This document shows, in pieces, positions 8,156-31,436 of a stretch of DNA of 31,436 nucleotides; the stretch's first letter is position 1, and each line of letters opens with the position of its first letter. The notes under the pieces were generated by a model that ran no database searches, was not told where the DNA came from, and worked only from the letters and a program-made list of their open reading frames with translations. The stretch covers positions 1-31,436 of IMG/VR virus record IMGVR_UViG_3300005466_000057, one strand, 5' to 3'. The position numbers were made by a program, and so were the translations under genes. Origin of the DNA: a virus.

Positions 8156-8702
8156 CCCAGGACAGACCCACATGCCTATGGTCAAGTTTGAGTCTACCGG
8201 GCTGTACGAGTGGAGACAACCCCAGGGTACTCGCGCACTCAGGCGCTTCACGCTGAGCTATAAAGGCTTGCCATATGACGAGTGGCAAGTGATCGATACG
8301 TTTATGCGGCTGTCGCTGAACTACGGCACGCTTAAATTTGACTGGCAAATGCCGCCGGATCACGGCATGGACATAACCTCGATCAGCACAGCTAACCCCA
8401 GAGTCGTATTTACCACGCGGCTACACGGGTTTGTGACCGGCGACTACGTCATCATTCGCAACGCGGCATCGGCAGTCAACGGCGTGCGGCGCGTCACTCT
8501 GGTCGATCAGCAGCATTTCTCGCTTGATGGGCTCTCGGGCGGTACGTCAATCGGCGTGGTGAAGAACTGCGTCAATCTCGCGTTCCCGTATGCCTTGATT
8601 GACTCGGATACGATCCCTGCACCTGAGAAGGTATTCGGCCCGATGGCGGATAATCACGGGTTTTACAATCTCGACGTGCCGATTATCGAGGCGAGGGCTT
8701 AG
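8109..8702 (+). CDS. Minor tail protein, lambda gpM-like, with inserted FCCH-like domain
   Basis: 197 aa. Residues 25-85 match the gpM/DUF2460-type pattern: VKFESTGLYEWRQPQGTRALRRFTLSYKGL, then EWQVIDTFMRLSLNYGTLKFDWQMP, like 'Y..R.p.G.n...r.wsltf..l...e...i..F.....g...F.w.PP'. Residues about 88-150 are an insertion with RLHGFVTGDYVIIRNA and QQHFSLDGLSGG, the same FCCH-like beta module as in the tube protein. The gpM-like part resumes at CVNLAFPYALIDSD. Such proteins sit at the tail tip between the tube and the central tip protein. ATG 8109 is used; ATG 8115 in the same frame is equally possible. It is followed within 2 nt by the gpL-like gene. Confidence 0.65.
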   Translation: MTMATWPTITYPKSVSPGQTHMPMVKFESTGLYEWRQPQGTRALRRFTLSYKGLPYDEWQVIDTFMRLSLNYGTLKFDWQMPPDHGMDITSISTANPRVVFTTRLHGFVTGDYVIIRNAASAVNGVRRVTLVDQQHFSLDGLSGGTSIGVVKNCVNLAFPYALIDSDTIPAPEKVFGPMADNHGFYNLDVPIIEARA

Positions 8703-8704
8703 GG

Positions 8705-9202
8705 ATGCGTTTTTACAGCAACGCATTTAACAGGCGCTTACGTACCCGTGAAGGAGCCGCACTCATATGGTTGATCGAGGTGTCGATCCCGTTAATCGCA
8801 GGGTCGCCTGTACGTTTTGCGGTGAATAACGAGACGGTCACGTTTCACGGCAACGTGTTTGACCCGATTGATGCGGTGATAGATCAGGTAGGTGAAGGTA
8901 CGGTGGATTCACCCCCAGGCGTAACCATAACCGTGAGCAATGTGGGAAATCCGATAGGCGCGACGGTGGATAACTACTGGTATCCGGCGCTTGGGGCTGA
9001 GCAAATATGGTCGGCAACGCTCTGGTATATCGATGCCTCAGCGCCTGACAATGTGCCCACGGGGCTAGGGATGCAATTCGAGATTAGCGACATTACATAC
9101 AGTGCTGTGATGGCTAAATTCAGCATGCGGCCTAAGTTTCTGTCGATAACCAAAACGTTTGGCCGCAATTTCAATACAACCGACTTCCCAGGCTTACAAT
9201 GA
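8705..9202 (+). CDS. Minor tail protein, lambda gpL-like
   Basis: 165 aa, start ATG 8705 preceded by TTAGGG. It follows the gpM-like gene directly. It has the layout of gpL/DUF1833-type tip proteins: an N-terminal segment ALIWLIEVSIPL with VRFAVNNETVTFHGNVFDP ('r.t.~.~~v.f.G..y.p'), a PPGVTITVSN strand, then ATLWYIDAS and FEISDITYS. The C-terminus FGRNFNTTDFPGLQ resembles the tail of such proteins but lacks the cysteine cluster that lambda gpL uses for its iron-sulfur centre. The stop overlaps the next start in ATGA (9199-9202), so the next gene is likely translated by coupling. Confidence 0.65.
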   Translation: MRFYSNAFNRRLRTREGAALIWLIEVSIPLIAGSPVRFAVNNETVTFHGNVFDPIDAVIDQVGEGTVDSPPGVTITVSNVGNPIGATVDNYWYPALGAEQIWSATLWYIDASAPDNVPTGLGMQFEISDITYSAVMAKFSMRPKFLSITKTFGRNFNTTDFPGLQ

Positions 9203-18400: not shown

Positions 18401-18451
18401 GACAACGAAACGGGCGAGCGGCTCTTGCCCTGTGTCCTCTATGTAGGGTAG
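15434..18451 (+). CDS. Tail spike 1: right-handed beta-helix, pectate-lyase-like
   Basis: 1005 aa. Residues 1-90 are the anchor shared by all three spikes (MARVGDGISTNGTVTGAGWP, FDTLWVRDNV, TLHKELINDGLAYAL, SLQARLDPYIP). Residues about 70-235 hold two tandem copies of a ~75-residue unit, each with ARLDxYIPxNPGxPN and TGGLxGxGYxDxKxNG. Three pectate-lyase-3-type entry motifs follow: VKSFGAVGNNSTNDATS (near 236), KWWGAKGDGTTNDLAAIQ (331) and IHWGAIADGATD (430); each normally starts a beta-helix. The long Gly/Asn-rich helix runs to about 855. The C-terminal domain (about 857-1005; GSHFAQWGTG, DEPYERWYFDEDRV, GLGTAMVRVIGP, TASDTPG) is shared with spike 2 and probably drives trimerisation or self-processing. 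Probable role: binding or degrading host surface polysaccharide. No substrate can be named. Confidence 0.8.
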   Translation: MARVGDGISTNGTVTGAGWPKNTFDTLWVRDNVPNSHEPSSTTLHKELINDGLAYALYITRVLGLNPIGTYPSLQARLDPYIPSNPGDPNHLVGPAGEKMSVNAITFTGGLYGHGYADIKLNGSSTRRLDFGDAADASVAGTFAGLSPRLDAYIPLNPGEPNPWVASTGEKFTIVGVSLTGGLFGSGYVDLKINGTTSQRFSFSGAGAAIGSAIVSYTPTAANSVTRTLNAHLADMVNVKSFGAVGNNSTNDATSILNANLAAGNKIVYFPAGDYVISSTMSLNAISLGYNTQLKPGAGVTLSVGSIDAPPDTQIFGGSGSVQVTSKQPVYAKWWGAKGDGTTNDLAAIQAAVASSASTVRLMGGTFLAGTGTLSGQIEFARGAILKVIAGNTITFANQWAAGYYPIFDANEVTSGTIRVVNGTGIILHPIHWGAIADGATDCRLPLQATFNLCQSLGAIGNISGGVTQLGSGTYLTSGTLTFAVQGGILRGEGKRGSFIVGNFASGDILKVGLPGSDPGLVTYLYRLQDFSIDSSVVKTSGFGIHFENIVLCNAQNMAIGSRFPNNLFSGIYLDGLNGFTIDSFEAYGRDTGVAIRGKTSPNLGAGATFTKGNINECSIGLHVGGLFGGVIIDETDLSLNATNLFISQNLQPVPAAQQIFLGPKCFFDSATAGPGIRIDDPGGWNLFLSGTWIASNRGGGIVINNGTSLARLVYCGGTVYNNTGPGIYANTSVPRIFVDGVSFALNTGMALESGAVNPNFIIGNNDYYLNGGTIGANITGVVMTRSLRVSKPSGTLLEPGVSMPHTGNTIITANGLTPLTVCLNTTNGTLIDLAKDGISQGSISVNGTTVAYNTFTGSHFAQWGTGCEPDEEPLPGTLLSTVDEPYERWYFDEDRVRADSDGAILMSKPQLVKVRITDMSDDQRIYGVYAGRDDHGDISVYGLGTAMVRVIGPVTGGDLLTASDTPGVAERQDGNIITSSTLGKASRGDNETGERLLPCVLYVG

Positions 18452-18458
18452 GTAAATT

Positions 18459-21428
18459 ATGGCTCGGATTGGTGACGGCATTAGTTCAAACGGTGTGATC
18501 ACAGGAGCGGCATGGCCAGGCGGGTTCGATACGCTATGGACTCGCAACAACGTGTCAAACCCTGTCACTCCATCGGATACAACCCTGCATAGAGAATTGA
18601 TTAATGACGGGTTGAGTTATGCCTTGCACATTGCCAGCAAACTCGGAGCTAATCCGCTAGGGTCATTTCCAAGCCTCCAGGCTCGGCTCGCACCGTATAT
18701 CCCGACTGCGCCGGGGGGAGCTAATCCTCTTGTTAGTGCTAATGGTAAGACCCTGACTATCAACGATTTGCAGCTCACAGGCGGACTTTATGGGATTGGC
18801 TATGCCGATATTAAAATAGATGGGGCAACCAACAAAAGGATCGATTTCAGCGACACAGGAAGTAGCACCCTATCTGGTACATTCTCTTCCCTGTCTGCCC
18901 GTCTTGATGCTTATATTCCACTGACTCCGAGCGGTCCCAACCCGTGGAAATCAATCTCAGGGCAGGCTCTAACGGTTAGCTCGATCAGCACGACCGGCGG
19001 CCTATTCAATACAGGCTATATCGATATTAAGATTGACGGCGCAACAACCAAGCGATTTAGTTTTACCGACAATTCGACAGGGATGACTACAGAGCTTGTA
19101 TCCTATACGCCGACAGGGACGGGAGGCCAATCGCGCCCGCTCACGACACACCTGGGCGACTTCATGGATGTCAAGGCGTTCGGTGCGCTCGGTAATGGCG
19201 TTCAAAACGATGCCACGCTGATTGCTAATGCGAATACAGCCGCGGGTAATAAAATTCTCTATTTCCCATCAGGGACTTATGTCATTGGCGGGAATATCAC
19301 GCTCAATACGATATTCATGGGCCACAATACGAAGTTGTCGGTGAATAGCGGCGTGATTGTCAATATTGCCCATGTTATTGCTCCTTTTGATACTCAAATA
19401 TTCGATGGCTCAGGCCATATCAATATCACGAGCAAAGAGCCTGTCTACGTGCGTTGGTTTGGCGCGATTGGCGACGCCACGACAAATAGTACGACTGCGA
19501 TTCTTGCTGCCGACACATGCGGTAGCAACATCGTTCGGGTAGCTGCGGGGACATATTTAGTCAACACGACAACGCTAAGTGCTAAATATGAGTTTTTAAA
19601 TGGCGGGGTGTTTAAAGTTCCAGCAGGGCAAGCCTTGACGTTTGTCAATCCCTGGTTAGCCGAAGAATATAAAATATTTGACGCCAATGAGTCATCGACT
19701 GGAGCTGTCAGATGTGTTGCGAAATGCGACCTCTATGTGGCGCATTGGGGAGCGAAGGCGGACGGCGTTACAGACGACATGAGGCCCATACAAGCCGCGC
19801 TCAATGTAATGTCGGCATCAGGGGGTGGCGCTGTGCATCTCATGCACGGCACGCATAAGGTGTCTGGCACGCTGACAATGACGGGGCATGTTCAGACACT
19901 GAGAGGTAGAGAAAACGGCGGGACAATCATCCAAGGCACATTCGCAAGCGGTGACATTTTATACGCAGGGACGCCAACGGGTGTCAATATTCGATATTAC
20001 ATTACGGATGTCACCATAAATAGTTCAGTAGTTAAAACATCGGGCGCGGGGCTACACTGCCAGAACTTAAATCAAGTTTATATACAAAATGTCGCAGCAG
20101 AGTCAGGCGCGAATCTTTATGACGGTGCTTACTTTGAAACGACGACAACGAACCAGATCAATAACTTTATCTGCCGTGGCACGAATATATGCGTAAAAGT
20201 TAAGGAGAGCTTTGATCTTTATATCATGAATGCACTCATTATCGGGGGCGGGATAGGTATATATGTTGGCGGCGGCAGCGGCGGCCTCTATTTTGATTTT
20301 CTCGATATCCTACTCAATACGCGCGGATTTGTTATGGATCGCGCGTTATCAGGAACGGATAACGGGCAGATGTTTTTCGGTGCGGGGTGTTTCATTGACA
20401 GCTCCAGTAGTCATGGGGTCCACATCAATGACACGGGAGGATGGAATGCTTTTTTCTCTGGCACCTGGATATCATCATCCACCGGATGCGGAATTGTTGT
20501 GGAAACTGGGAACTCGACATCAAGATTATGCTATGTCGGCGGCACTATATACAACAACCAACAACAGGGTATTCTGACAAAAAATGCAAACACTCGCATT
20601 TTTGTAGACGGCGTCTCTCTGTCCCTAAATGTCGGAGTTGCTCTTGAGACGACTGTCGTTAATAATTCAAATTTTATTGTTGGTGTTAATGATTATTTTT
20701 TGGCGACAGGTGGTGCCATATCTGGCAATATCACAGGCGGAACGAATCTGCATTATGTATCTACCGACAGCTTCAAAGTGCAGAAGCCATCAAATGGCGT
20801 CAATGAAGTTGGCATGATTGTCCCGGCAACGGGCAACACTACTATTACAGCGAGCGGCGTAGCGCCTTTGCAAATTAACCGTACTACTAACGACGGGACG
20901 TTGATGGATTTTTTACGCAATGGCGTCTCTCAGGGATCAATCCAAGTGAGTGGTACAACCGTATCGTACAACACGTTTACAGGCTCTCACTTCGCGCAAT
21001 GGGGCACGGGCTACGAGCCTGGCGAGGAACCCCAAGAAGGCACGCTGCTCTCTACCGTAGACGAGCCATACGAGCGATGGTACTGCGATGAAGACCGCGT
21101 CGCATGCGATCATGATGGCGCCATACTCGTGCCTAAACCGCAATTGGTTAGGGTTCGCATTACAGCCACAGCAAACGACAACCGCGTTTATGGCGTTTAT
21201 GGCGGCGTAGACGATCATGGCGATATCTCTGTATTCGGACTAGGGACGGCGATGGTGCGTGTGATGGGGCCTATAGAAGGCGGCGATCTTATCACAGCGA
21301 GTGATACCCCAGGCATAGCTAAGCGGCAAAATAGCGACGTGATCACATCGCGCACGCTCGGCAAAACATCTCGCGGCGACGATGAGACAGGCGAGCGATT
21401 GATTCCATGTGTTCTTTATGTAGGATGA
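18459..21428 (+). CDS. Tail spike 2: right-handed beta-helix paralogue of spike 1
   Basis: 989 aa, 7 nt after spike 1. Same architecture: anchor (MARIGDGISSNGVITGAAWP, TLHRELINDGLSYAL); two N-terminal repeat units; three pectate-lyase-3-type entries (VKAFGALGNGVQNDAT, VRWFGAIGDATTNSTTA, AHWGAKADGVTDDMRPIQAA); beta-helix; and C-terminal domain (GSHFAQWGTGYEPGEEP, GGDLITASDTPG). The anchor and C-terminus are close to spike 1, while the beta-helix core (for example GGGIGIYVGGGSGG, VHINDTGGWNAFFSG) has diverged at many positions. This is the expected result of keeping assembly parts and varying the receptor-facing part. The motifs VHINDTGGWNAFFSGTWISS and RIDDPGGWNLFLSGTWIAS still align, so the two arose by duplication. 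Confidence 0.8.
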   Translation: MARIGDGISSNGVITGAAWPGGFDTLWTRNNVSNPVTPSDTTLHRELINDGLSYALHIASKLGANPLGSFPSLQARLAPYIPTAPGGANPLVSANGKTLTINDLQLTGGLYGIGYADIKIDGATNKRIDFSDTGSSTLSGTFSSLSARLDAYIPLTPSGPNPWKSISGQALTVSSISTTGGLFNTGYIDIKIDGATTKRFSFTDNSTGMTTELVSYTPTGTGGQSRPLTTHLGDFMDVKAFGALGNGVQNDATLIANANTAAGNKILYFPSGTYVIGGNITLNTIFMGHNTKLSVNSGVIVNIAHVIAPFDTQIFDGSGHINITSKEPVYVRWFGAIGDATTNSTTAILAADTCGSNIVRVAAGTYLVNTTTLSAKYEFLNGGVFKVPAGQALTFVNPWLAEEYKIFDANESSTGAVRCVAKCDLYVAHWGAKADGVTDDMRPIQAALNVMSASGGGAVHLMHGTHKVSGTLTMTGHVQTLRGRENGGTIIQGTFASGDILYAGTPTGVNIRYYITDVTINSSVVKTSGAGLHCQNLNQVYIQNVAAESGANLYDGAYFETTTTNQINNFICRGTNICVKVKESFDLYIMNALIIGGGIGIYVGGGSGGLYFDFLDILLNTRGFVMDRALSGTDNGQMFFGAGCFIDSSSSHGVHINDTGGWNAFFSGTWISSSTGCGIVVETGNSTSRLCYVGGTIYNNQQQGILTKNANTRIFVDGVSLSLNVGVALETTVVNNSNFIVGVNDYFLATGGAISGNITGGTNLHYVSTDSFKVQKPSNGVNEVGMIVPATGNTTITASGVAPLQINRTTNDGTLMDFLRNGVSQGSIQVSGTTVSYNTFTGSHFAQWGTGYEPGEEPQEGTLLSTVDEPYERWYCDEDRVACDHDGAILVPKPQLVRVRITATANDNRVYGVYGGVDDHGDISVFGLGTAMVRVMGPIEGGDLITASDTPGIAKRQNSDVITSRTLGKTSRGDDETGERLIPCVLYVG

Positions 21429-21434
21429 GGCATT

Positions 21435-23279
21435 ATGGCGCGAATTGGCGATGGGATTACTACGAATGGGCAAATAACCGGTGCATCATGGCCGGGCACA
21501 GCATTTGATACGTTATGGTCTCGTAACAGCGTTGCTAATCCCGTGGCTCCTAGCGATACGACGCTGCACAAGGAACTAATTAATGACGGGCTGAGTTATG
21601 CCCTGCACATTACGGCTAAATTGGGTCTAAATCCCCTTGGTAACTTCCCCAGCTTGCAGGCACGCCTTGCTCCGTACATCCCAACGACGCCTGGCGCTCC
21701 GAATCCACTCGTATCCGCAGATGGCAAAGCCGTTACGGTCTCATCTATTGCGTCTAGCGGTGGAGGCAACGGGGAGGGGTATATCCGATTCTTGCTCGAT
21801 AATGCAACGACAAAACAAGTTGATTTTGGTACGGTTACGCTTCCATCCTATCCCGATTTTACGACGATAGATGCCAGCAGGGTATTCTACGCCCCCACGA
21901 ATGTCAAAGCCGCCCTCGATGCCCAAACTGGACAAATGACACAACTGAACACAACGATACAGGCTATTCAAGCTACCGATGCAGGGCAGGCGATATCTAT
22001 AGCCAATAATAATGCAACATTGAATAGCCATACAACTACTATTAACAATCATACAACTACGATAAGCGATCATACTGCAAAGATCGCATCCATCCAAGTC
22101 CGCCAGCTCAAGATGCCATACGTCACAGATAGCCTGTGGAACGCAACGGGTAACGGTACGACAGATGATTACGCTGCGTTTGCTGCATGCCGAGATGCAA
22201 CCGGCGGGAATTTTTTTATCCCCCCCGGCACCTATAAACTCAGCAATGTCCTCACATTTACAGGCCCATTCAACATTCGCGGAGCAGGACGACATACGAC
22301 CTATCTCTACTATGATGGTAATCGAGATTGCATTAAGATCGATTCGAGTGCAGCTTGGTCTATCAGAGATTTAGCTATTACGCATACTAGGCAGAGCGGC
22401 GTGCCGACTGCTGGCGCTGCGATTAATATCATATCGAGTAATTTCGGCCATGCAGAGAATCTCATCATTGAAAAACCTCGTATTGGCGTACTCCTGCAAC
22501 CCAAGGCAGGCGCAGCGGTCAACAAGAGCTGTTACTACGACATTGTGATAGGCGGGCATGAAGTTGCTGGATTTTACCTGGATGGGCTGACTGCTCCTGT
22601 CATCGATGTCGTCATACAGGATTGCACGATCACAGGATTTACAGGTACGGGGAAGGGGCCTGGTGTGGGCGTTTACATCACAGGCCAATGCGAGGGGAAC
22701 TTTATACGTGGCGGCGATTTTATCCTACAACAACGTGGTATCTGGGTAACTAACACATCTCTTGTGCACCCTAAGCATCCTTCAGGCGTCCATATAACAG
22801 ATTGCCAATGCGATAGTAACGTTTTTGGCATTACAATTGATCATTGTGTATGGGCTAAACTGGCGGGTTGTTGGATGTCTACATCTGAAAATCATGGCCT
22901 TTATGTCAGTGATACGTACCTGCTAGACGTAGCCGATTGCATGTCTTACAACAATACAAAAGCTGGTGTGTATTGTGAAGCTACCACGAAACACGCCAGG
23001 ATTCACGATAATCAAATGTTTGGCAATAGTCGACTCGCTCCGAATCAATGGAGCGGTATCATGATGGCCGCTAATACAACCGATTTTTCCATTACAAATA
23101 ATGTGAGCGGATGCGATGGTGCAATTCCTACGACATCCGACCAGAGATACGGAATAGAGGTTGGCACAGGAGCGTCAAACCGTTATATCATCACAGGGAA
23201 TAGGCTGATAGGGAACCAAACTGGCACGATCTTCGATGGCGGGAATGGAGCCAGTAAAATTGTCTCAGGCAATATCTAG
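21435..23279 (+). CDS. Tail spike 3: short beta-helix spike with shared anchor
   Basis: 614 aa, 6 nt after spike 2. The anchor is conserved (MARIGDGITTNGQITGASWP, TLHKELINDGLSYAL, SLQARLAPYIP), but only one N-terminal repeat unit is present. A polar, heptad-like region follows (about 165-220; AIQATDAGQAISIANNNATL, HTTTINNHTTTISDHTAKIA), then a single pectate-lyase-3-type entry (DSLWNATGNGTTDDYAAFAA, FFIPPGTYKLS) and a beta-helix with ITNNVSG, ITGNRLIGNQ near the end. The C-terminal domain of spikes 1 and 2 is absent; it ends in FDGGNGASKIVSGNI. The coiled-coil stretch may replace that domain as trimerisation element. Convergent with the lyase gene, 88 bp away; no clear terminator is seen in the gap. 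Confidence 0.78.
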   Translation: MARIGDGITTNGQITGASWPGTAFDTLWSRNSVANPVAPSDTTLHKELINDGLSYALHITAKLGLNPLGNFPSLQARLAPYIPTTPGAPNPLVSADGKAVTVSSIASSGGGNGEGYIRFLLDNATTKQVDFGTVTLPSYPDFTTIDASRVFYAPTNVKAALDAQTGQMTQLNTTIQAIQATDAGQAISIANNNATLNSHTTTINNHTTTISDHTAKIASIQVRQLKMPYVTDSLWNATGNGTTDDYAAFAACRDATGGNFFIPPGTYKLSNVLTFTGPFNIRGAGRHTTYLYYDGNRDCIKIDSSAAWSIRDLAITHTRQSGVPTAGAAINIISSNFGHAENLIIEKPRIGVLLQPKAGAAVNKSCYYDIVIGGHEVAGFYLDGLTAPVIDVVIQDCTITGFTGTGKGPGVGVYITGQCEGNFIRGGDFILQQRGIWVTNTSLVHPKHPSGVHITDCQCDSNVFGITIDHCVWAKLAGCWMSTSENHGLYVSDTYLLDVADCMSYNNTKAGVYCEATTKHARIHDNQMFGNSRLAPNQWSGIMMAANTTDFSITNNVSGCDGAIPTTSDQRYGIEVGTGASNRYIITGNRLIGNQTGTIFDGGNGASKIVSGNI

Positions 23280-23367
23280 TTTACAATTTAGCGCGGCGGC
23301 CCCTACTGCCATGAGACTGGGGTTCGGAGCCATCGCTATCATCGCGTTGAAGAGGTGATAGATTGTA

Positions 23368-25053
23368 CTATGAATCCGACTCTGCGTCATCCGCGGGACA
23401 TGATGGAGCCGGTTGCGGTCCTGGATCGGGTTTAGGCTCTGGTTCTGGCATCGGTTCGGGATCAGGGCAATGACACGGGTCTGGCTCAGGTTCTGGCGTA
23501 GGCTCAGGGATCGGCTCTGGCTCGGGATCAGGGGTAGGCTCCGGTTCCGGTGCAGGGGTTGGGCCGGGCTCAGGTGTCGGGTCTGGCTCTGGCTCTGGGG
23601 CTGGTACCGGATCAGGCGCAGGCTCTTCTTCACTCTTACAGCACACGCACCCCGTTGCTTCGCAGTCACAATCCGGGTTAGCCGCACAGCACTTACATCC
23701 GCAATCGTGCCCTACCGGCGGGTCAGTCGGTACTTCGTCTGTTGCAGTCGGATACGGTGGGCATTTCCCCTCGCGCTGCCCAAACATGAAGAGCACGGCA
23801 GGATACGTCCCCCAATCTCCGCCCCACACATCATATCCACCACCCCATGCATGTTGAGGCATAGAGGTTCGCATGTATGAATCTCTGATGGCCTCTGACC
23901 GATAGTACATATTCGCCACGCTGAGAATGATATCGTGATTCATCGTTTTCCCAGCGTTGATGATTTTATCGGACGTAAGATTTTTGTCCTTGCTGCCGTA
24001 AACTTTGATCTTACCCAACGTCATGGCCACATAACGATCAACAATTTGCTTGAGGCTTTTAGGCCCGCCATCCCATCCATGCGCCCCCTGTGATGTCTCA
24101 TAGGTATACAGGCTCATATCACCCGCACGCGCGAAATGGTCCGCCATCGTAATCATACTGCCGATGACTAACCCCGCGTAGTGATAGCCCGTCTGGGCTG
24201 GTTTCTCTTCATGGTAAAATTTGGCGTCATTCCAACGATATTGGTCCATCACGGTGCCGTCTTTGGCCACAGCAAAACACATCCAATCCTGGAAAAACCG
24301 CTTGGCACAGTCTTTTATTTTAGCATCATTGAGCATAATACCGATCGCTGCGCCGGTGCTCATTGCGAAGGCAGATTTGTTGTGGAATATCTCATGGAAT
24401 TTATAGACCTGGTACCCATCCCAATGAGTCATGCCGTGTTTGACGCCAGGGGCAGGGTACTTACCGGGGCTTTTCCAATCGCCTGCCGCGTATTTCGGAA
24501 AATAATCCTCGATCCACTGGCATACATTATCCACCCAATAGCGCCCAGAATCAAGGAACCATTTGTCGAGTTTGGTACGGTCTGCGTCATTGACGCTTGG
24601 CCGGATATAGCTATAAGCGTAGGTGATGCGGCGTAACCACATGCTGATGTCTTCGTTACCATACGAGATGGTATCATATGGCAACCACCGCTTCCGGTCC
24701 ATAAACTTAGTGCCAACCGCGTCGGCTTGCCTCAGTAGTGCTTTTAGGACGGCATCACGGTAGCGATGGTCCTCGGTGAGGAGCCAAATAAACGCGGCGT
24801 CTCGCATGCTATTGCCGAGTTGGCGGCTAGGTTCCGCGTTGGGTTTCTGTTTGCCAACGTCAATATCCGGCGCTTTCCACGGCACAGATAGCTGATTGCC
24901 TACCCAAAAATCGGCTGTGGGCTTGGCTAGGAATGCGTTGGCGCGGTCGAGGATGCGCTTGTAGTGGGTCTGGTAGATATAGGTCTGAGATCGCTCCTGC
25001 CAAAACTTAATCTCGTCCTCGGTGCAATGTAAGGCTACGTGTTTCGTCGCCAT
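23368..25053 (-). CDS. Alginate-lyase-like polysaccharide lyase with Cys cluster and Pro/Glu tail
   Basis: 561 aa, ATG at 25053 with AGGAG ten bases upstream. Residues 1-430 read as an alpha/alpha-toroid lyase of the alginate lyase superfamily: [20 protein letters not shown] (repeating helix pair), [58 protein letters not shown], and [20 protein letters not shown] with GDMSLYTY, close to the 'hYHnfal.plv..ae.a...g.dly' region of family PL5-type enzymes; H and Y in GYHYAG are candidate catalytic residues. Residues about 449-472 contain nine cysteines in 24 positions. Residues 479-561 are almost entirely PEP/PDP repeats with a CHC insert. No signal peptide. It is encoded opposite to the spikes. 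It probably depolymerises uronic-acid-type polysaccharide; specificity is unknown. Confidence 0.65.
23371..23619 (-). repeat. Low-complexity GGCTCN-type repeat encoding a Pro/Glu stalk
   Basis: On the + strand the stretch is an imperfect array of GGCTCTGG / GGATCGGG-like hexamers; on the coding strand it gives (P-E/D/A/T-P) repeats over about 83 residues. Alternating Pro and acidic residues are expected to form a stiff extended spacer. Such DNA is prone to slippage, so length may vary between related phages. Confidence 0.75.
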
Positions 25054-25084
25054 AGTTGAGTGACTCCTGTGTATCGTTGATCAT
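25007..25084 (-). CDS. Possible 25-aa leader ORF overlapping the lyase start
   Basis: The best Shine-Dalgarno of this interval (AGGAGG followed by CAGCC) precedes an ATG at 25084, not the lyase ATG at 25053. That ATG opens a 25-codon frame ([13 protein letters not shown]...) which ends inside the lyase gene in another frame. It may be a leader peptide that couples translation to the lyase, or only chance. The region 25085-25125 holds no other ORF. Confidence 0.25.
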
Positions 25085-25125
25085 GGCTGCCTCCTGATCG
25101 GTCGAGTATCGATGCTGCCTCGTTA

Positions 25126-25488
25126 TTAATATAACTTTCTCAGTCTCTCCAGTACATCATCCGATGTGTGGCCATCCCATTCGGGTGCGAGATCGAGCGT
25201 CTCGGCAAACTCGGTTTCGTCCCAGTAGGCTATAGGTAGGTGATAGGTGATCTGCTTTCCTGGTTTTTTGTCTATGCCCATCACAAACCACCCATCCATT
25301 GTACTGCCGTCGCTATGGCAGAGAGATCACCAAACGCATGCGTTCGTCCCATATTCATGTGCCAAAAAGTCGATTGTGCTGCACAGCGCGATAAATAGCC
25401 TATGCCTATGGTGATATAGCTCGTCAAACGTGTGGTACCCATCGCATGTGCATGGGTCTTGTTGGCATTTAGCCGCGTGCTGCCTCAT
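25126..25488 (-). pseudogene. Conserved phage protein split by an in-frame TGA (HTFDELY..WDGHTSDDV family)
   Basis: A single frame of 121 codons carries one TGA at 25327-25329. The ATG at 25488 overlaps the upstream stop (ATGA). The first half (53 aa) contains CTCDGYHTFDELYHHRHRLF and ends NACVW. Directly after the TGA the same frame continues SLCHSDGSTMDGWFVMGI, KQITYHLPIAYWDE and APEWDGHTSDDVLERL, ending at TAA 25126-25128. In the phage family I recognise, these two halves form one protein ('HTFDELYeHRh...W.S..H.DGs..dGWF..GI....itYHlp...W......aPeWDGHTs.DV..RL'). The stop therefore probably replaces a sense codon such as CGA. The second half could restart at ATG 25299 (57 aa). Function unknown. 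TGA is a normal stop elsewhere in the window. Confidence 0.7.
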
Positions 25489-25871
25489 CAGGGTTCATCC
25501 CCTCTGTAATTAGGCACTGGCGCGATGCGTCTTTCCATCCATTCTAGTCGCTCAATGCGCTGGATTAATGTATCCATTTTATGCAAAATATCTTGCGTAT
25601 GTTCGTCAGTTTTCTCTAGGTGGGTCTCAATCCGTATGAGTCGGTCATGCTGGCTTGCCACTCGTTCCATGTATGCGATCATCTTTTCGCGGACATCTTC
25701 AATCTTAGGCTCCACCTTATCAAAACGTGCCACAGGGCTTTCGATCCAGAATCGAATCAGGAATCCCCCCGTGCCTATAATGATGACGCTCGCAGCGCCA
25801 GCAATCCATTTAATGATCGTTTGCGACCAAAAGGTATCCGACCCTCCCACATGGTTAGATGGGTGAGCCAT
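25488..25871 (-). CDS. Membrane-anchored coiled-coil protein A (127 aa)
   Basis: ATG 25871 is chosen because a GGAG lies upstream and the protein then starts MAHPSNHVGG. One transmembrane segment (about 18-43, IIKWIAGAASVIIIGTGGFLIRFWIE) is followed by a long amphipathic helix (about 55-112; KIEDVREKMIAYMERV, IRIETHLEKTDEHTQDI, KMDTLIQRIERLEWMERR). It ends with RIAPVPNYRGDEP. It is a paralogue of the next gene upstream (25984-26325), sharing IGTGGFLIRFWI with IGTGGYLGRVWV and a PVP-aromatic end. An N-terminal anchor plus coiled coil is seen in holin-associated and spanin-like proteins, but no lysis role is proven. Confidence 0.65.
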   Translation of the reverse strand: MAHPSNHVGGSDTFWSQTIIKWIAGAASVIIIGTGGFLIRFWIESPVARFDKVEPKIEDVREKMIAYMERVASQHDRLIRIETHLEKTDEHTQDILHKMDTLIQRIERLEWMERRIAPVPNYRGDEP

Positions 25872-25924
25872 TGCTATGCATCTCCGGCAATGCCTCCGAC
25901 TTTGAGCGCCTGACAATAGAGCCT

Positions 25925-25937
25925 AATTGTAACAATT
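25925..25937. promoter_or_regulatory. Perfect 13-nt palindrome between the two coiled-coil genes
   Basis: AATTGT-A-ACAATT is an exact inverted repeat in the 112-bp intergenic gap 25872-25983. It lies about 55 nt upstream of the 25871 start codon. Such a symmetric AT-rich element can be an operator; no convincing -10/-35 pair surrounds it. Confidence 0.3.
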
Positions 25938-25983
25938 TGTCAGGTCGCCTCACAACGTGACGGATTCTATCTCTGTCATATCG

Positions 25984-26325
25984 TCATTTTTTGGGCTCTT
26001 GAAAATCTGGCACCGGATTCAATCTGTGCTCAAACTGCTCGACGTAGTGCATGATCTTCGCCATCCTATCGTCGATAAAATCAAGTCGTTTATTGACATG
26101 GGTAAGCCAACCTTGGAGGTTCTCGACATGCTCTTCATTGGTTATGATTTTGTTGCTGTTCTCCTCTATTTTCTTCTGATTCTCCTCAAGGAGAACACGC
26201 TCATGATGTTTATCGACCCATACCCTCCCCAGATAACCTCCGGTCCCAATCGTCACCACTAGAATAGCACTGAATACCAGTTTCGTGATGAGATGCGTCG
26301 CAAATCTGCCCTTATGACCATTCAT
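25984..26325 (-). CDS. Membrane-anchored coiled-coil protein B (113 aa), paralogue of A
   Basis: Start ATG 26325 behind AGAGATTAAAAAA. The N-terminus is basic (MNGHKGRFATHLITK), followed by one transmembrane segment (LVFSAILVVTIGTGGYLGRVWV, about 16-37) and a coiled coil (KHHERVLLEENQKKIEEN, NEEHVENLQGWLTHVNKRLD, KIMHYVEQFEHRL). The end PVPDFQEPKK parallels PVPNYRGDEP of protein A. Probably inner membrane with the coiled coil in the periplasm, given the positive N-terminus. The pair may act together, for example as hetero-oligomer. It is the first gene of the leftward unit; the 201-bp gap to the divergent gene is AT-rich without a clear promoter. Confidence 0.65.
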   Translation of the reverse strand: MNGHKGRFATHLITKLVFSAILVVTIGTGGYLGRVWVDKHHERVLLEENQKKIEENSNKIITNEEHVENLQGWLTHVNKRLDFIDDRMAKIMHYVEQFEHRLNPVPDFQEPKK

Positions 26326-26526
26326 TTTTTTAATCTCTGGATACGCCTCCGACGTATTAGCGCCAGATACTATTTAATTTTAACAAGTTATGATATCCCA
26401 CCACAACTAGAGACATTTCTACCGTATACTGCCCAAATTTTCAGTATGTCTAATTTATGCAAGATGGAGGAACATATAAGTATAAGAGGTTTAAATTTGA
26501 AATATGATGGTATAGGAGAGGGTCAG

Positions 26527-26952
26527 ATGAGGAAATGGATGTGTTTCACGGTAGCGTCATGGGCATTTGTGGTACTACTCGGCAATTTCAACTCTGCTAC
26601 AGCATTGCCGTGGGGTCCGCACGGTAGTGAACTTACACTGGATATCCCCAATAATCCCGGCTATACGCTAGAGCCTTCTGGCACAAATAACGCGGGGTGG
26701 GCATGGGGGCATGCCTATGATTTTACAGGCAATCTGGACGATTTTATATTTATCTTTGACGGATCAAAATGGTACTGGCTCAAGACGCCAGACGATGTAA
26801 TATGTTCTCAAATATTTGATATAAATAGAAAGAAAGAAGCGATTATGGATTGTCTCAAGGAAAGCGAAGGCAAGTCAAAATATCGGATCATTAGATTAGA
26901 CAGAATAGGCTGGATGGTTCCGCTCCCAAGTAACGGTATGCCTAACCCCTAA
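26527..26952 (+). CDS. Secreted protein with LPW mature start, copy 1 (141 aa)
   Basis: The frame is open from 26293, but ATG 26527 has AGGAGAG eight bases upstream and gives a clean Sec signal peptide: MRKWM, hydrophobic core FTVASWAFVVLLG, and an ATA cleavage site before LPWGPHGSE. The mature part has GWAWGHAYDF, FIFDGSKWYWLKTPDD and a C-terminal IGWMVPLPSNGMPNP. It aligns with the next gene. The NGW.x.G.A / DGSKW.W / DIN pattern recalls HAF-type extracellular repeats. Exported to periplasm or surface. Gene and 5' flank are AT-rich and lie on the + strand between leftward operons, as expected for a transferred cargo gene. Confidence 0.7.
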   Translation: MRKWMCFTVASWAFVVLLGNFNSATALPWGPHGSELTLDIPNNPGYTLEPSGTNNAGWAWGHAYDFTGNLDDFIFIFDGSKWYWLKTPDDVICSQIFDINRKKEAIMDCLKESEGKSKYRIIRLDRIGWMVPLPSNGMPNP

Positions 26953-26977
26953 CCCAACGATGCATGTGGAGAACATC

Positions 26978-27454
26978 ATGAAAAGCAAAATAAGTATGAT
27001 GGTTGCCGTAGTTGCTTTTGTTTTTGGGACGATGGTGAGCCAAGCGATTGCGCTACCTTGGAAGACGGGGCAGAGCGAAATGCCGCTAGTATTGCCCGGC
27101 TCGCCAAATTACTTTGTCTCAGCCGATCACATCACGGACAACGGGTGGGTAGTGGGTAGTGCGAGATCGGTCGACGGGTCGCTGCCGGGCTATCGTGCTG
27201 ATGCGGATTATTATGATTGGTTTTGGGATGGGTCTAAATGGTGCTGGTTCAACTATCCCGACTATATGGATGACCCCGCCGTGCTCGACATCAACTCGTC
27301 TGGTACAATCCTTATTTCATATACCGACCGCACTGATGGGCAGTATAAATCTAGGTTCCTGCGGTACTATTTCCTCGATTGGCTGAAGCGTCTGTCGGCT
27401 AACGGCATTCCGAATCCGGCTGGCGATGCAGCTTGTAACCCGCCTAAGAAATAG
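26978..27454 (+). CDS. Secreted protein with LPW mature start, copy 2 (158 aa)
   Basis: ATG 26978 is preferred to ATG 26960 because GTGGAG sits seven bases upstream and the signal peptide then starts MKSKISMM. The hydrophobic core VAVVAFVFGTMVSQ leads to an AIA cleavage site before LPWKTGQSE, the same mature start as copy 1. The mature domain shows NGWVVGSARS, YDWFWDGSKWCWFNYPD, VLDINSSGTILISY and LKRLSANGIPNPAG, matching copy 1 in order. NGWVVG and DINSSGTI are typical of HAF-type beta repeats. Single cysteines at GSKWCW and DAACNP. Likely periplasmic or extracellular; function unknown. Tandem with copy 1, 25 nt apart. Confidence 0.75.
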   Translation: MKSKISMMVAVVAFVFGTMVSQAIALPWKTGQSEMPLVLPGSPNYFVSADHITDNGWVVGSARSVDGSLPGYRADADYYDWFWDGSKWCWFNYPDYMDDPAVLDINSSGTILISYTDRTDGQYKSRFLRYYFLDWLKRLSANGIPNPAGDAACNPPKK

Positions 27455-27486
27455 GGGTTGCATAAACTGAGACGATTCGCGGCTAC

Positions 27487-27612
27487 ATGATCAACGTCGG
27501 GGCCGATCAGAACGGCGTAGGCTATGGCCCGTGGATGCATATAGACGGGTTCAGTGATGGCGTCGTGAAGTATATGGTCGAGTACGAGCGGGAAACTCAA
27601 TCCGTGCTATAA
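27487..27612 (+). CDS. Small ORF downstream of the secreted pair (41 aa)
   Basis: ATG 27487 to TAA 27612 encodes MINVGADQNGVGYGPWMHID followed by GFSDGVVKYMVEYERETQSVL. The composition (G, Y, W, acidic end) is protein-like and the frame is open for six sense codons upstream (TETIRGY) after a TAA. No Shine-Dalgarno precedes it. It could be the remaining C-terminus of a larger decayed gene. Not recognised. Confidence 0.35.
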   Translation: MINVGADQNGVGYGPWMHIDGFSDGVVKYMVEYERETQSVL

Positions 27613-27654
27613 TCAAACCAATCGCCATAGGGAAGGCGAGGGAAAGGAGTGCGG

Positions 27655-27681
27655 CGGCTCGGGTCACGCCAACCTGAGCCG
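27655..27681. terminator. Hairpin between convergent units (possible bidirectional terminator)
   Basis: CGGCTCGGGT (27655-27664) pairs with ACCTGAGCCG (27672-27681) with one G-T pair and a 7-nt loop. A smaller hairpin TCGCC/GGCGA lies at 27622-27639. Neither is followed by a T-run, so intrinsic termination is uncertain. It sits where + and - units converge, the usual site of a terminator. Confidence 0.35.
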
Positions 27682-27695
27682 TCAACATTCTCGGT

Positions 27696-27851
27696 CTAAA
27701 TGACACCGATTAGCCTACCTATCACCATAATCGTCATGATAGCAAACCCAATCGCTACTAATGCCATTATTGACCAGTACATCAACGAACCAAACGCATC
27801 GAGCACTTCATAAACTATTTGGCGCAGGTTATCTCGCGTCGGCATCGGCAT
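27696..27851 (-). CDS. Small single-span membrane protein (51 aa)
   Basis: ATG 27851 shares one base with the stop of the preceding gene (TAATG), with CTGGAG upstream. The sequence MPMPTRDNLRQIVYEVLDAF is followed by one long hydrophobic segment SLMYWSIMALVAIGFAIMTIMV ending IGRLIGVI. Last gene of the leftward operon. The size and single span allow many roles (pinholin-type, antiholin, superinfection exclusion); none is demonstrated. Confidence 0.55.
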   Translation of the reverse strand: MPMPTRDNLRQIVYEVLDAFGSLMYWSIMALVAIGFAIMTIMVIGRLIGVI

Positions 27852-27976
27852 TACTCCAGTGGCCCAGGCGTAGGCCACATCCGACCGAGCAGGCACAGCA
27901 CCATCGCCGTGAATGTCATGGCGGTGAAGGTCCAAACAACGAGACGGGTACGTAGGGTCATATTGGTTTGCGGCAT
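27851..27976 (-). CDS. Small single-span membrane protein (41 aa)
   Basis: Start ATG 27976 with GAGGA eight bases upstream, three bases after the preceding stop; an internal ATG at 27961 is the alternative. MPQTNMTLRTRLVVW precedes a hydrophobic helix (TFTAMTFTAMVLCLLG) and a short tail MWPTPGPLE. The tail ends in a stop that overlaps the next start. The overlap arrangement on both sides is the main evidence that it is a gene. Confidence 0.5.
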   Translation of the reverse strand: MPQTNMTLRTRLVVWTFTAMTFTAMVLCLLGRMWPTPGPLE

Positions 27977-27979
27977 GAG

Positions 27980-28195
27980 TTAGTCCTCGATCTTAAGGAG
28001 TGCCTTTGCTAGTTCTAAATCCTTAATCAGCTTGTGCCTATATGAATCGGCATGACGGATTTCATTCTCTAGCCTAAAAAGGAGTAGGGCTATTGCAAAA
28101 TCGATTCCTTGACCTGGTTCTTTTCCCATAATACGACTACACTTCAGCACGAGGTCAGTCATCCCCTCGCCAAATCTGATAGAACAGTCACTCAT
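27980..28195 (-). CDS. Helical protein of unknown function (71 aa)
   Basis: ATG 28195 overlaps the upstream stop (ATGA), and AGGAG is placed eight bases upstream. The protein is soluble and helical: MTDLVLKCSRIMGK, IDFAIALLLFRLENEIRHAD, SYRHKLIKDLELAKALLKIED. Two cysteines, no motif. The arrangement of two amphipathic helices could form a dimer. Not recognised. Confidence 0.6.
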   Translation of the reverse strand: MSDCSIRFGEGMTDLVLKCSRIMGKEPGQGIDFAIALLLFRLENEIRHADSYRHKLIKDLELAKALLKIED

Positions 28196-28536
28196 TCTTC
28201 TACTCCTACATCATCAACCGGCATATTATTTAGGATGATTGGCTCTCCATCCCCATCTACCCTGATCGTATTAGCAAATTTTACTTGTGACAGATCATTA
28301 TCTCCGAAGTTGCAGCTATCGAACATACATCCGATAAATGTGCAACCTGCAATCTGTGCCTCTGAGAAATCTACGTTGCGAAACAAGACGCTATCAAATA
28401 CTGCCTTACTCAGGATAGATGTGCCGAAGGTTATATCTATCAAGTCACAATGAGTCATCCTTGACCACGGGAGCATGGCTCCTGATGGCGATATGGAAAT
28501 GAGTCGGCCATTTATCACTACATTGTCTGTAATCAT
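28192..28536 (-). CDS. Pentapeptide-repeat protein (114 aa)
   Basis: ATG 28536 is preferred because AGAAGAGG lies 5 nt upstream; a GTG at 28557 would add seven residues but has no Shine-Dalgarno. Residues about 29-90 follow the pentapeptide-repeat pattern with a bulky central residue every five positions: CDLIDITFGTSILSKAVFDS, VLFRNVDFSEAQIAGCTF, IGCMFDSCNFGDNDLSQVKF. This folds as a right-handed quadrilateral beta-helix. Some proteins of this fold mimic DNA and inhibit gyrase (Qnr, MfpA); most have unknown roles. The C-terminus (DGDGEPIILNNMPVDD) is acidic. It is soluble and lies in an operon of small membrane proteins. Confidence 0.75.
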   Translation of the reverse strand: MITDNVVINGRLISISPSGAMLPWSRMTHCDLIDITFGTSILSKAVFDSVLFRNVDFSEAQIAGCTFIGCMFDSCNFGDNDLSQVKFANTIRVDGDGEPIILNNMPVDDVGVEE

Positions 28537-28547
28537 CACATCCTCTT

Positions 28548-28742
28548 CTATAGACACATTTTGCCCGATATATTCGTAGAAAAGGCATTAAGCAATATGC
28601 TCACAACAGCATATGCGGCCAACTCAAATATGAGAGCATATGTCAATCTTGCAAAAGTTATATCCTCTCCATAATCTGTTCTCCCCCATATGCCTCCAGA
28701 AATAAATGAGAACATGCAAGCTATCCATATTATTGTTGGCAT
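28548..28742 (-). CDS. Two-span small membrane protein (64 aa)
   Basis: The frame extends up to a TTG at 28781, but ATG 28742 follows GAAGAGCTTAC and starts after the upstream gene ends. MPTIIWIACMFSFISGGIWG forms the first hydrophobic segment; FARLTYALIFELAAYAVVSI the second; a short polar loop RTDYGEDIT separates them. The end (STNISGKMCL) reaches the ribosome-binding region of the pentapeptide gene. Two-span, 60-70 aa proteins include class II holins, which makes it a candidate, but no lysis partner is identified. Confidence 0.55.
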   Translation of the reverse strand: MPTIIWIACMFSFISGGIWGRTDYGEDITFARLTYALIFELAAYAVVSILLNAFSTNISGKMCL

Positions 28743-28752
28743 GTAAGCTCTT

Positions 28753-28956
28753 CTATATCCTCGTTCTCGCCACATCCTCAACCAGATCGTTGATGCGTGG
28801 CGTATCAGGGTTATTGCCGTAGTGCGCTGCGAACTCGGCTTGAATCTCGCGCAATATCTCCGTGGGTATGTTGAACATCAGTAAGTGCCGCGGCATCGCG
28901 ACGTTGCTGTACTGCGTACGGCGGTCGACGAAGTAGTTGTCGTGGTCGGTGGACAT
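28753..28956 (-). CDS. Soluble phage protein of unknown function (67 aa)
   Basis: ATG 28956 with AAGGAG six bases upstream decides the start; the longer frame upstream is a shadow of the neighbouring gene. Sequence: MSTDHDNYFVDRRTQYSNVA, then LMFNIPTEILREIQAEFAAHYG and TPRINDLVEDVARTRI. The middle predicts a helix. No known motif. It follows the 94-aa gene by ten bases. Confidence 0.6.
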   Translation of the reverse strand: MSTDHDNYFVDRRTQYSNVAMPRHLLMFNIPTEILREIQAEFAAHYGNNPDTPRINDLVEDVARTRI

Positions 28957-28966
28957 AGCAATCTCC

Positions 28967-29251
28967 TTATGCCGCGCTCTCTTCCATCTGTGCCCATTCC
29001 CGCGTTCTGATCTCGCCATTGGGCAGGGCCGGGGGCGGGCCGAACTTCTTCTCGCACAACCAAAACCATCGGTTGTTCGCTTCCACCATGATGGGGTGAA
29101 AGTTTGACCGTGCCGCAATGTCGCTATAATCATCACCCTGAAAGATGATGATGTTGTGCAACCCTGCCCAAATCCGCACGAGATTGTCGAGGACTTCGAG
29201 CGTGTCGGCAGACTGGATGCGTTCTATGGTCACAATGGGTTCGTTGATCAT
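28967..29251 (-). CDS. Phage protein of unknown function (94 aa)
   Basis: ATG 29251, with GGAG eleven bases upstream. MINEPIVTIERIQSADTLEV starts a compact alpha/beta protein: VLDNLVRIWAGLHNIIIFQG, DYSDIAARSNFHPIMVEANN, RWFWLCEKKFGPPPALPNGE. The WFWL element and NNR suggest a folded domain. No family recognised. It lies in a run of tightly packed genes. Confidence 0.6.
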   Translation of the reverse strand: MINEPIVTIERIQSADTLEVLDNLVRIWAGLHNIIIFQGDDYSDIAARSNFHPIMVEANNRWFWLCEKKFGPPPALPNGEIRTREWAQMEESAA

Positions 29252-29253
29252 TG

Positions 29254-29373
29254 TTATGGCGCTCCATATATCAAATATATAATATATAATATCCCACCTA
29301 GTGATATGGACATCACGACTATGCCTATTATTGCCATAATGTCAATTGCAGTCATGCGTTGCCGATTGGCCAT
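29254..29373 (-). CDS. Very small membrane protein (39 aa)
   Basis: ATG 29373 has a near-consensus TAGGAGG seven bases upstream. MANRQRMTAIDIMAIIGIVV continues MSISLGGILYIIYLIYGAP, so almost the entire peptide is one transmembrane helix with a basic N-terminus. The AT-rich 3' half (29275-29295, alternating TATA) encodes the ILYIIYLIY segment. The strong ribosome-binding site and two-base spacing to the next gene support translation. Confidence 0.6.
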   Translation of the reverse strand: MANRQRMTAIDIMAIIGIVVMSISLGGILYIIYLIYGAP

Positions 29374-29382
29374 GATAGCCTC

Positions 29383-29916
29383 CTACGATTGTTTCCACCC
29401 AAAGCACAATTCGCCGTCTTCCATTCTATGGCTCCAGTACGGCTTACCGCTCTTTTTACTGATACGCGACTCCATTTCTGCGCCGGAGTGCTCAGGCAGT
29501 GGGCATGGCTTTACCCCAGGGTCTGTGCTATGTTGCACAGTTGCCGGAATAGACTGCGCAGACTGCCTAGCTTTCGCTTTTGCCGCATCCAATACCGCAT
29601 TGAGTTTGCGGACATGTACCAATACTTCGTCGAGATTATCGCCCCTAATGACGTGCAGGTTCTCCCTGCCGTAGACGTCGATGAACTTGACGCTGTGCAC
29701 GATAGGCGGTTCGCAGTCCCGCCAGCTTGGCTCTCGTAGTGGCTCCAGCATTGGCATAGGCTCAGGCTCATGAGTGACCACAGGCACTGTGGGTACTTCC
29801 TCCCACTGGCTGATGTCAGGCGGCGGCGTATCGTCCTCCATCGTCGCGTTCCAGTCATCCAGCGATGGCTCAGGGCCAAACTCGTCTTCATCATGTGTGT
29901 CGAATAGTTCAGGCAT
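29383..29916 (-). CDS. Acidic protein with C-terminal zinc-ribbon-like motif (177 aa)
   Basis: ATG 29916 shares one base with the upstream stop (TAATG) and has GGGAG nine bases upstream; ATG 29931 is possible but would lie inside the upstream gene. The first 70 residues are acidic and Pro-rich (DEDEFGPEPSLDDW, EPEPMPMLEPLREP). The middle is helical (NLDEVLVHVRKLNAVLDAAK). The C-terminus CPLPEHSGAEMESRISKKSG, KPYWSHRMEDGELCFGW matches the 'C..H...m....s..G..YwsH....g.lC.G' element seen at the end of many phage proteins and probably binds zinc (C, H, H, C). A nucleic-acid-binding role is possible. Confidence 0.6.
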   Translation of the reverse strand: MPELFDTHDEDEFGPEPSLDDWNATMEDDTPPPDISQWEEVPTVPVVTHEPEPMPMLEPLREPSWRDCEPPIVHSVKFIDVYGRENLHVIRGDNLDEVLVHVRKLNAVLDAAKAKARQSAQSIPATVQHSTDPGVKPCPLPEHSGAEMESRISKKSGKPYWSHRMEDGELCFGWKQS

Positions 29917-30095
29917 TATTTTGGCTCCCATTCATCGAGGCGGAATACTCTATACCAGAAATCTATGTATCTCATGAATAACCTGAATGCTACCGCGGCT
30001 ATGGGAACGGCTGCCATGACCATTAGTATCCCGGCTACTATGGCTATGGGAACGGCTGCCATGGAGAGTAATATCTGAAGTAATAAGTCAAGCAT
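29916..30095 (-). CDS. Membrane protein with internal MAAVPIA repeat (59 aa)
   Basis: ATG 30095 follows GGAGGGTAAAT. The peptide has two tandem copies of MAAVPIA (MLDLLLQILLSMAAVPIAIV, AGILMVMAAVPIAAVAFRLF) and ends RYIDFWYRVFRLDEWEPK. The hydrophobic part would span the membrane twice or as one long helix. The copies match a 22-nt exact DNA repeat, so the duplication is recent. Confidence 0.6.
   Translation of the reverse strand: MLDLLLQILLSMAAVPIAIVAGILMVMAAVPIAAVAFRLFMRYIDFWYRVFRLDEWEPK
29997..30063 (-). repeat. Two exact 22-nt direct repeats spaced 45 nt, in frame
   Basis: GGCTATGGGAACGGCTGCCA plus TG (22 nt in all) occurs at 29997-30018 and again at 30042-30063. The 45-nt period is exactly 15 codons, adding MAAVPIA and flanking residues. 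The unit is in frame and its exactness shows recent duplication or slippage. Confidence 0.85.
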
Positions 30096-30097
30096 AT

Positions 30098-30265
30098 TTA
30101 CCCTCCATACACATGGCACACAAAGTACACTGTCGCCAATATCGACACAAAACACGTACCTATAATCATAGCTTGATCCACTACGCGATACTGCGTACTC
30201 AGGCCGCATACACCGATGAACAGCGTTAGCAGCGTGTTCAGGATGAGGTACCCCGCGCTTAGCAT
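30098..30265 (-). CDS. Two-span small membrane protein, holin candidate (55 aa)
   Basis: ATG 30265 lies seven bases after AAGGAGAG. MLSAGYLILNTLLTLFIGVC forms the first span, and MIIGTCFVSILATVYFVCHV the second, joined by GLSTQYRVVDQA; it ends YGG. Its 3' end contains the ribosome-binding site of the next gene. Small two-span proteins in late phage operons include class II holins, but with no endolysin nearby this is only a candidate. Confidence 0.6.
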   Translation of the reverse strand: MLSAGYLILNTLLTLFIGVCGLSTQYRVVDQAMIIGTCFVSILATVYFVCHVYGG

Positions 30266-30477
30266 GCCTGGCTCTCCTTGCTGCCGATGCTAATTAGCCC
30301 GTCTATCTCGGCTATCGTGTCTATCAGGCAATCTATCGAGAATTGCAGGCGATTGCGCTTCTTGCACAGCGCCATGATGCGGTGGTGCTCGCGTTCGTAT
30401 ATGGCTTCGAGCTGCCGCGAGATGTCGCCTAGCGTCTCGCGCATTGCCTCGATTTGTTCGATGTCGTTGGAGTCCAT
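30259..30477 (-). CDS. Coiled-coil protein of unknown function (72 aa)
   Basis: ATG 30477 follows AGGAGGTAGGCTG and overlaps the previous stop (ATGA). The sequence is heptad-like throughout: MDSNDIEQIEAMRETLGDIS, RQLEAIYEREHHRIMALCKK, RLQFSIDCLIDTIAEIDGLI. Soluble, likely dimeric. The family is not recognised. Confidence 0.6.
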   Translation of the reverse strand: MDSNDIEQIEAMRETLGDISRQLEAIYEREHHRIMALCKKRNRLQFSIDCLIDTIAEIDGLISIGSKESQAC

Positions 30478-30644
30478 CAGCCTACCTCCTGCCAGTCATC
30501 TAACATTTGCCGCGAAATCTCGATCTGAGACCATCGTCCGTATGTTACATGGCACGGCTCGCAGACATTTATCCCGTGGACGTCATGCGTAGCAGGCGTA
30601 TCGCAGTCGGATAATTTGCATATCTCGCAGTAGATCGTGCCCAT
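30477..30644 (-). CDS. Small CxxC...CxxC zinc-ribbon protein (55 aa)
   Basis: MGTIYCEICKLSDCDTPATH, then HGINVCEPCHVTYGRWSQIE. C6-x2-C9 and C28-x2-C31 form a treble-clef or zinc-ribbon type site, with further C14 and H residues nearby. The stop overlaps the next start as ATGA. Such miniature zinc proteins are common in phages and often act by binding nucleic acid or host protein; none can be specified. Confidence 0.65.
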   Translation of the reverse strand: MGTIYCEICKLSDCDTPATHDVHGINVCEPCHVTYGRWSQIEISRQMLDDWQEVG

Positions 30645-30661
30645 AGGTCACTCGCTTTCTA

Positions 30662-30679
30662 GGGGGCCTTACGACCCCC
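30662..30679. other. Short GC hairpin after the secreted-protein gene
   Basis: GGGGG (30662-30666) and CCCCC (30675-30679) can pair around an 8-nt loop just beyond the 3' end of the 30687-31052 gene. There is no T-run on either strand, so it is at best a weak pause or processing structure. Confidence 0.25.
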
Positions 30680-30686
30680 ACGTATC

Positions 30687-31052
30687 TTAATTCATCACGT
30701 TGTTAATATAATTGAGCGCACGGTTAAATACGGCATCGCACATCGCATCGAATTCTTTTGCAGCATTAAACGTACTGCTCGCATACATCGAACCGCTAGC
30801 GATCAACTTCGAGCCACCAGGGTAGCGTTGGTAGACGTACATCATGCACGGGCGACAATCGATAGTGCCTTCCCTACCAATCCGCCGTTGTATCTCGTAT
30901 GAGTAGTTGTGGTTGTGGTTCTTTTTCGCCTCGTGCAATCGTTCTGCCTGAGTCAGCGCAGGCAACGCATACACGTCATCCGATCCGTTGACGGCTAATA
31001 CGGGGCTTGCTGTGGTGGCAAGCACTAGTGTGGCAATGATCGCTCGCTTCAT
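30687..31052 (-). CDS. Secreted protein with a CRPC motif (121 aa)
   Basis: Start ATG 31052 behind GAGAAACGT. A typical Sec signal peptide, MKRAIIATLVLATTASPVLA, would be cut before VNGSDD. The mature part has an aromatic/His helix (KKNHNHNYSYEIQRRIG), a CRPC motif (IDCRPCMMYVYQRYPGG) and a helical C-terminus AAKEFDAMCDAVFNRALNYI. The CxxC resembles redox or metal sites, but the third cysteine (MCDAV) could make a disulfide. Export to the periplasm is expected in a Gram-negative host. Function unknown; third signal-peptide protein of the window. Confidence 0.65.
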   Translation of the reverse strand: MKRAIIATLVLATTASPVLAVNGSDDVYALPALTQAERLHEAKKNHNHNYSYEIQRRIGREGTIDCRPCMMYVYQRYPGGSKLIASGSMYASSTFNAAKEFDAMCDAVFNRALNYINNVMN

Positions 31053-31128
31053 ACGTTTCTCATTTGGTTAGGTGGATGTTGGCGCTTTGGTAAACAGGAC
31101 AGTTAGGCGATATCGTCACCCCCTTTCT

Positions 31129-31368
31129 TTATTCCAGTGAGTTACTCAATTTCTTTAACACATCCAATATAATATCCACTGACTCTTCGACTCGCATATA
31201 TTCAATGAACTTTACCCCCGAGTAATTAGGGAATGTAAGATGAGTGCCATTCCCCCTAGGCTCCATGCTGATAACTGAGTTCATATTTACATATATAATT
31301 TCTTTATCTCTAGATCCGTCATAATCATCTGATATCTTGTTGAGTCTTAAGAATATAGGCTTCATCAT
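31129..31368 (-). CDS. FlbD-like small protein (79 aa)
   Basis: ATG 31368 is chosen because GGAGGA sits six bases upstream and it shares a base with the preceding stop (TAATG); the frame itself is open further upstream. MMKPIFLRLNKIS leads to EIIYVNMNSVISMEPRGNGT, HLTFPNYSGVKFIEYMRVEE and SVDIILDVLKKL. This follows the FlbD family layout ('I.l...ng.....vN...I..ie......T.i.l..g....V.Es..ei...i'), a small beta-strand plus helix protein first known from flagellar operons; relatives of unknown role occur in phages. The 76-bp gap to the next gene is AT-rich without clear signals. Confidence 0.55.
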   Translation of the reverse strand: MMKPIFLRLNKISDDYDGSRDKEIIYVNMNSVISMEPRGNGTHLTFPNYSGVKFIEYMRVEESVDIILDVLKKLSNSLE

Positions 31369-31436
31369 TATTCCTCCATCTGCGTCAATTGCCCGCATAT
31401 CTCGTTGTACAGCCGCAATGCCGTGCGTGCTGCCTC
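31368..31436 (-). CDS. C-terminus of an unidentified gene (partial)
   Basis: The window edge cuts a reverse-strand frame whose last 22 codons read EAARTALRLYNEICGQLTQM followed by EE and TAA. The stop overlaps the FlbD-like start codon (TAATG). Helical, no motif. The coupling indicates that the leftward operon continues beyond the window. Confidence 0.5.
   Translation of the reverse strand, partial: EAARTALRLYNEICGQLTQMEE

Follow-up and report, generated by a model that had tools for sequence, protein, structure and literature searches.

A small gene of an uncultivated tailed phage, encoding a member of the WDGH-domain family (PF25311), is interrupted by a single in-frame TGA that is unique to this contig; the remainder of the gene is intact, and TGA is a stop codon in this phage. 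The interruption probably arose very recently, by a nonsense mutation in an accessory gene that the phage can do without. A very recent change of this kind was among the options listed in a first-pass annotation of the sequence, and it is the best supported of them, as the stop is private to the contig and the rest of the gene has not decayed. The features needed for the argument are listed below; the window is the whole stretch of DNA that was analysed, 31,436 nt in length.

25126..25488, minus strand: gene for the WDGH-domain protein (PF25311); 120 codons, one of them an in-frame TGA
25327..25329, minus strand: the in-frame TGA, codon 54, flanked by the invariant W53 and the near-invariant S55
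25330..25488, minus strand: first half, 53 residues, with the HTFDELY helix; matches PF25311 alone with E = 8e-08
25126..25326, minus strand: second half, 66 residues, with DGWF and WDGHTSDDV; matches PF25311 alone with E = 1.6e-17
25499..25505, minus strand: AGAGGGG, a good ribosome-binding site for the gene's own start, -8.2 kcal/mol
25297..25299, minus strand: internal ATG at which translation may restart; ribosome-site energy -2.6 (background median -2.4)
25488..25916, minus strand: upstream gene, with one transmembrane stretch and a coiled coil (by eye)
18459..21428, plus strand: tail-spike paralogue ending in TGA (CVLYVG), showing that TGA terminates here

The minus-strand frame runs from the ATG at 25488-25486 through the TGA at 25329-25327 to a final TAA at 25128-25126, in one frame throughout, which bears out the earlier claim that no indel lies between the halves. 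The central claim, that a conserved phage gene is broken by a single in-frame TGA, proved to be real; PF25311 recognises either half by itself. Two details needed correction: the second half has 66 residues where 67 had been given, and the start overlap is not ATGA but TGATG, in which the TGA stop of the upstream gene shares one base with the ATG of the WDGH gene. The neighbouring genes at 25491-25892 and 25984-26325 (minus strand) look like paralogues by eye, each with one transmembrane stretch and, after it, a coiled coil, and neither has a Pfam match. Further on, at 26293-27454, two adjacent plus-strand genes oppose the direction of their neighbours; they have signal-peptide-like starts and a similar layout (LPW..., NAGWAWG / DNGWVVG), and the first of the pair has no PHROG match.

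The first-pass annotation had proposed a search with the concatenated translation. The read-through protein matches PF25311 over residues 14-118 with E = 8.7e-31 and 106.6 bits, far beyond chance; the Pfam gathering cut-off for this model is 27 bits, and each half alone also exceeds it. PHROGs 3392 and 3769 match as well; neither has a known function. Relatives come from 156 records of named phages (Listeria, Salmonella P22-like, Klebsiella, Streptococcus and Lactococcus, among others) and from 257 viral-contig stretches, and the few genomes that carry them probably do so as prophages. WDGH is a small gene, common in phages. A search of one literature collection for the domain returned no papers, and a sequence search of solved structures gave no meaningful match. 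The contig's copy matches the family over its full length with every strongly conserved column kept, and it is a stand-alone small protein, as in L046 and L047. It differs in its one in-frame stop, the intact members that were checked having a continuous frame, and in a loop before W53 that is longer than in most members but common to its nearest clade. The gene is therefore classed as an interrupted member of the WDGH family, and not as a working one. Two observations touch on the family more broadly. In the phage csAssE-Sib (L040:2767-3522) WDGH is joined in one protein with a Tad2-like (Thoeris anti-defence 2-like) domain, which is no more than a hint at what the family may do. An N-terminal His/Cys pattern (e.g. 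HAAKC...CTCDG) precedes the domain at 25440-25488 (minus strand) and also in the near relatives L046, L048 and L053, and may form a metal site.

Whether related genomes also carry TGA at codon 54 had been raised as a check. A stop occupies this column in none of 115 loci, which instead carry W (51), K (50), R (10), L (3) and C (1); many of the W entries are near-identical Salmonella copies, and among 64 distinct proteins the residues are K (42), W (12), R (9) and L (1). These relatives thus have mostly K, W or R, and none has a stop. The nearest clade (L046 to L052, 52-60% identical) carries R or K and W appears in more distant members, in keeping with the earlier guess of an Arg-type original codon. 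A profile check across the whole records of ten members found no internal stop. Homologues that occur naturally as two proteins with the same boundary, which the first-pass annotation had named as evidence against its own reading, were looked for and not found. An apparent TGA in the Collinsella copy (L039) was set aside as a separate event, because that copy lacks the domain's second half. As for DNA spanning the stop, no near-identical sequence was found in the viral collection with this codon left open, a megablast of 20000-31436 against named phages returned no near-identical DNA, and searches with the spike, the tail-tip protein and the 561-aa protein encoded next door gave no relatives.

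Apart from codon 54, the gene has the appearance of an intact one. All 14 conserved columns before the stop and all 13 after it are kept. After the stop, identity to the nearest sisters is 0.58-0.66, compared with 0.50-0.61 among the intact sisters themselves, and half by half the identities of the contig's copy are no lower than those between intact sisters. In a maximum-likelihood tree, the end branch of the contig's copy is 0.39, against 0.42 for L046, 0.60 for L051 and 0.66 for L052, intact sisters that each form a single row; the protein shows no sign of evolving faster than its intact sisters. This lack of decay implies that the change is very young, or that it is an error, or that full-length protein is still made. 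A private disabling change, with a remainder free of decay, is one mark of a recent pseudogene, and the copy shows it. The case resembles ordinary nonsense-mutated phage accessory genes in its single private stop within an otherwise intact frame, and differs from them solely in its extreme youth.

The same cleanliness is a counterpoint to the nonsense reading, for a gene that is sound but for a single base also resembles a consensus error. A sequencing or assembly error, with the phage itself carrying an intact WDGH gene, is the main rival explanation, which we regard as a real but distinctly less probable one: a single base is involved, with no indel, no decay and no relative with the same stop, and the sequence comes from a single record of an uncultivated virus. 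Substitution errors are, however, rare in assembled consensus. Moreover, a second contig of the same phage, found via the minor tail gene (L045, IMGVR_UViG_3300005340_000125), is 99.99% identical over positions 1-8799, where it ends, and reaches 405 bases beyond the left end of our contig. Only one of the 8,799 bases differs, a synonymous third position at 2685, and the consensus is thus accurate there. This difference also indicates that variants of this phage exist. Random point changes in the long genes are nonsense in 3.2% of cases; at the density seen in L045, about 3 to 4 differences and about 0.1 nonsense changes would be expected per window, a rough estimate because it is based on that single difference. 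When many contigs are scanned, then, a single case of this kind is to be expected and is unremarkable.

In the nearest clade, the WDGH copy of L053 (2980-3404) is frameshifted in the first conserved motif, which supports the view that the gene is dispensable, with the reservation that L053, too, is a metagenome contig. Together with the loss of the second half in the Collinsella copy and the patchy distribution of the family, which is present in 1 of 369 and 4 of 298 genomes, this frameshift suggests that the gene is expendable elsewhere.

Is TGA read as a stop at all in this phage? Two tandem spike paralogues share the same protein end and finish it differently, 15434-18451 as ...PCVLYVG-TAG and 18459-21428 as ...PCVLYVG-TGA. 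Since they end at the same residue with either codon, TGA terminates here, and the phage uses it as an ordinary stop. If the spike TGA were read through, the second spike gene would be fused to the whole of the third. The 35 listed frames end in TAG (15), TAA (13) and TGA (7), and no other in-frame TGA occurs among the about 9,900 codons of the listed genes. The idea that TGA is a sense codon here (code 4-like) could draw on its being the least used terminator, but the paralogue comparison, the fusion of two complete genes that readthrough would entail and the lack of TGA inside any other listed gene refute it in practice. Recoding of TGA would place the codon in many genes and leave it unused as a terminator, and the contig shows neither. 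Recoded phages have the stop in many ORFs; phAss-1, for example, is reported with TAG in 41 ORFs (PMC10607447). The likeness to stop-recoded phages lies in a conserved gene that contains a stop in frame; unlike them, the contig has one instance, no tRNA was found and TGA terminates other genes. The prevalence of TAG as terminator is unusual at about 52% G+C. The spike-like genes number three in tandem (15434-23279), with near-identical starts (MARIGDGI...) and C-terminal ends common to the first two, and look like paralogues diversified in place.

Continued production of the full-length protein would also keep the second half conserved, which is a further counterpoint to the nonsense reading. 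This could come about through a leaky stop, or through a suppressor tRNA encoded outside the fragment and decoding TGA. The homologues are single chains, the second half is fully conserved, and, as the record is possibly incomplete, a tRNA encoded in another part of the genome is conceivable. Neither the suppressed stop nor the programmed readthrough proposed earlier gained support, however. No tRNA and no Rfam family was found within the window, no relative conserves the TGA, and the absence of other in-frame TGA codons is unlike phAss-1 (PMC10607447). Folding downstream of the stop gave z values of -0.29, 0.45 and -1.54 in three windows, and even for the last, from the larger window, 15 of 200 shuffles were as good, so no structure reached significance in these windows. 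We therefore hold a leaky or suppressed stop to be unlikely, and slightly more so the specific version in which it acts as a lineage-specific control that keeps full-length WDGH protein at a low level. If true, readthrough would make this a regulated stop confined to one lineage, which is rare in accessory genes of phages.

The first-pass annotation had also offered a two-chain protein with a restart at ATG 25299. In this reading, the second chain begun there would combine with residues 1-53 to form a functional domain. The ATG is in frame and follows the stop by just under 30 bases, and the second chain alone matches PF25311 with E = 6e-14. Its ribosome site, however, is at background level and far from the -8.2 of the true start; its Met is common in intact relatives (DGTMYDG and similar), so a role as start does not account for its presence; and no relative is split at this point. 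In an AlphaFold model of the read-through protein (TGA modelled as Trp; mean pLDDT 79.7), codon 54 falls within strand 51-55, the first strand of a single compact predicted domain, and this strand would be cut. Two cooperating chains are consequently very improbable; like a leaky or suppressed stop, they have nothing positive in their favor except that the second half is intact. Foldseek with this model gave no match at E under 0.001, and the best VIA-align hits, SRP Alu-domain proteins at Z 4.5, were within the range of common arrangements, and no function was read from them.

We thus favor the recent nonsense mutation, by which a dispensable accessory gene would have acquired a single change. 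Translation would begin normally and end after 53 residues. The position of the stop within strand 51-55 implies a first chain of one helix and a partial strand; such a product, with only the start of the first strand, should not fold, and WDGH function would be lost in this variant. The change would be so young that the second half is not yet decaying. Two points in this account are inferred, the reality of the base and the inactivity of the truncated product. The case is an ordinary one, of little importance by itself. Gene callers will split or miss the WDGH gene here. The case suggests that the widespread WDGH gene of tailed phages can be lost, with the other genes of the contig intact.
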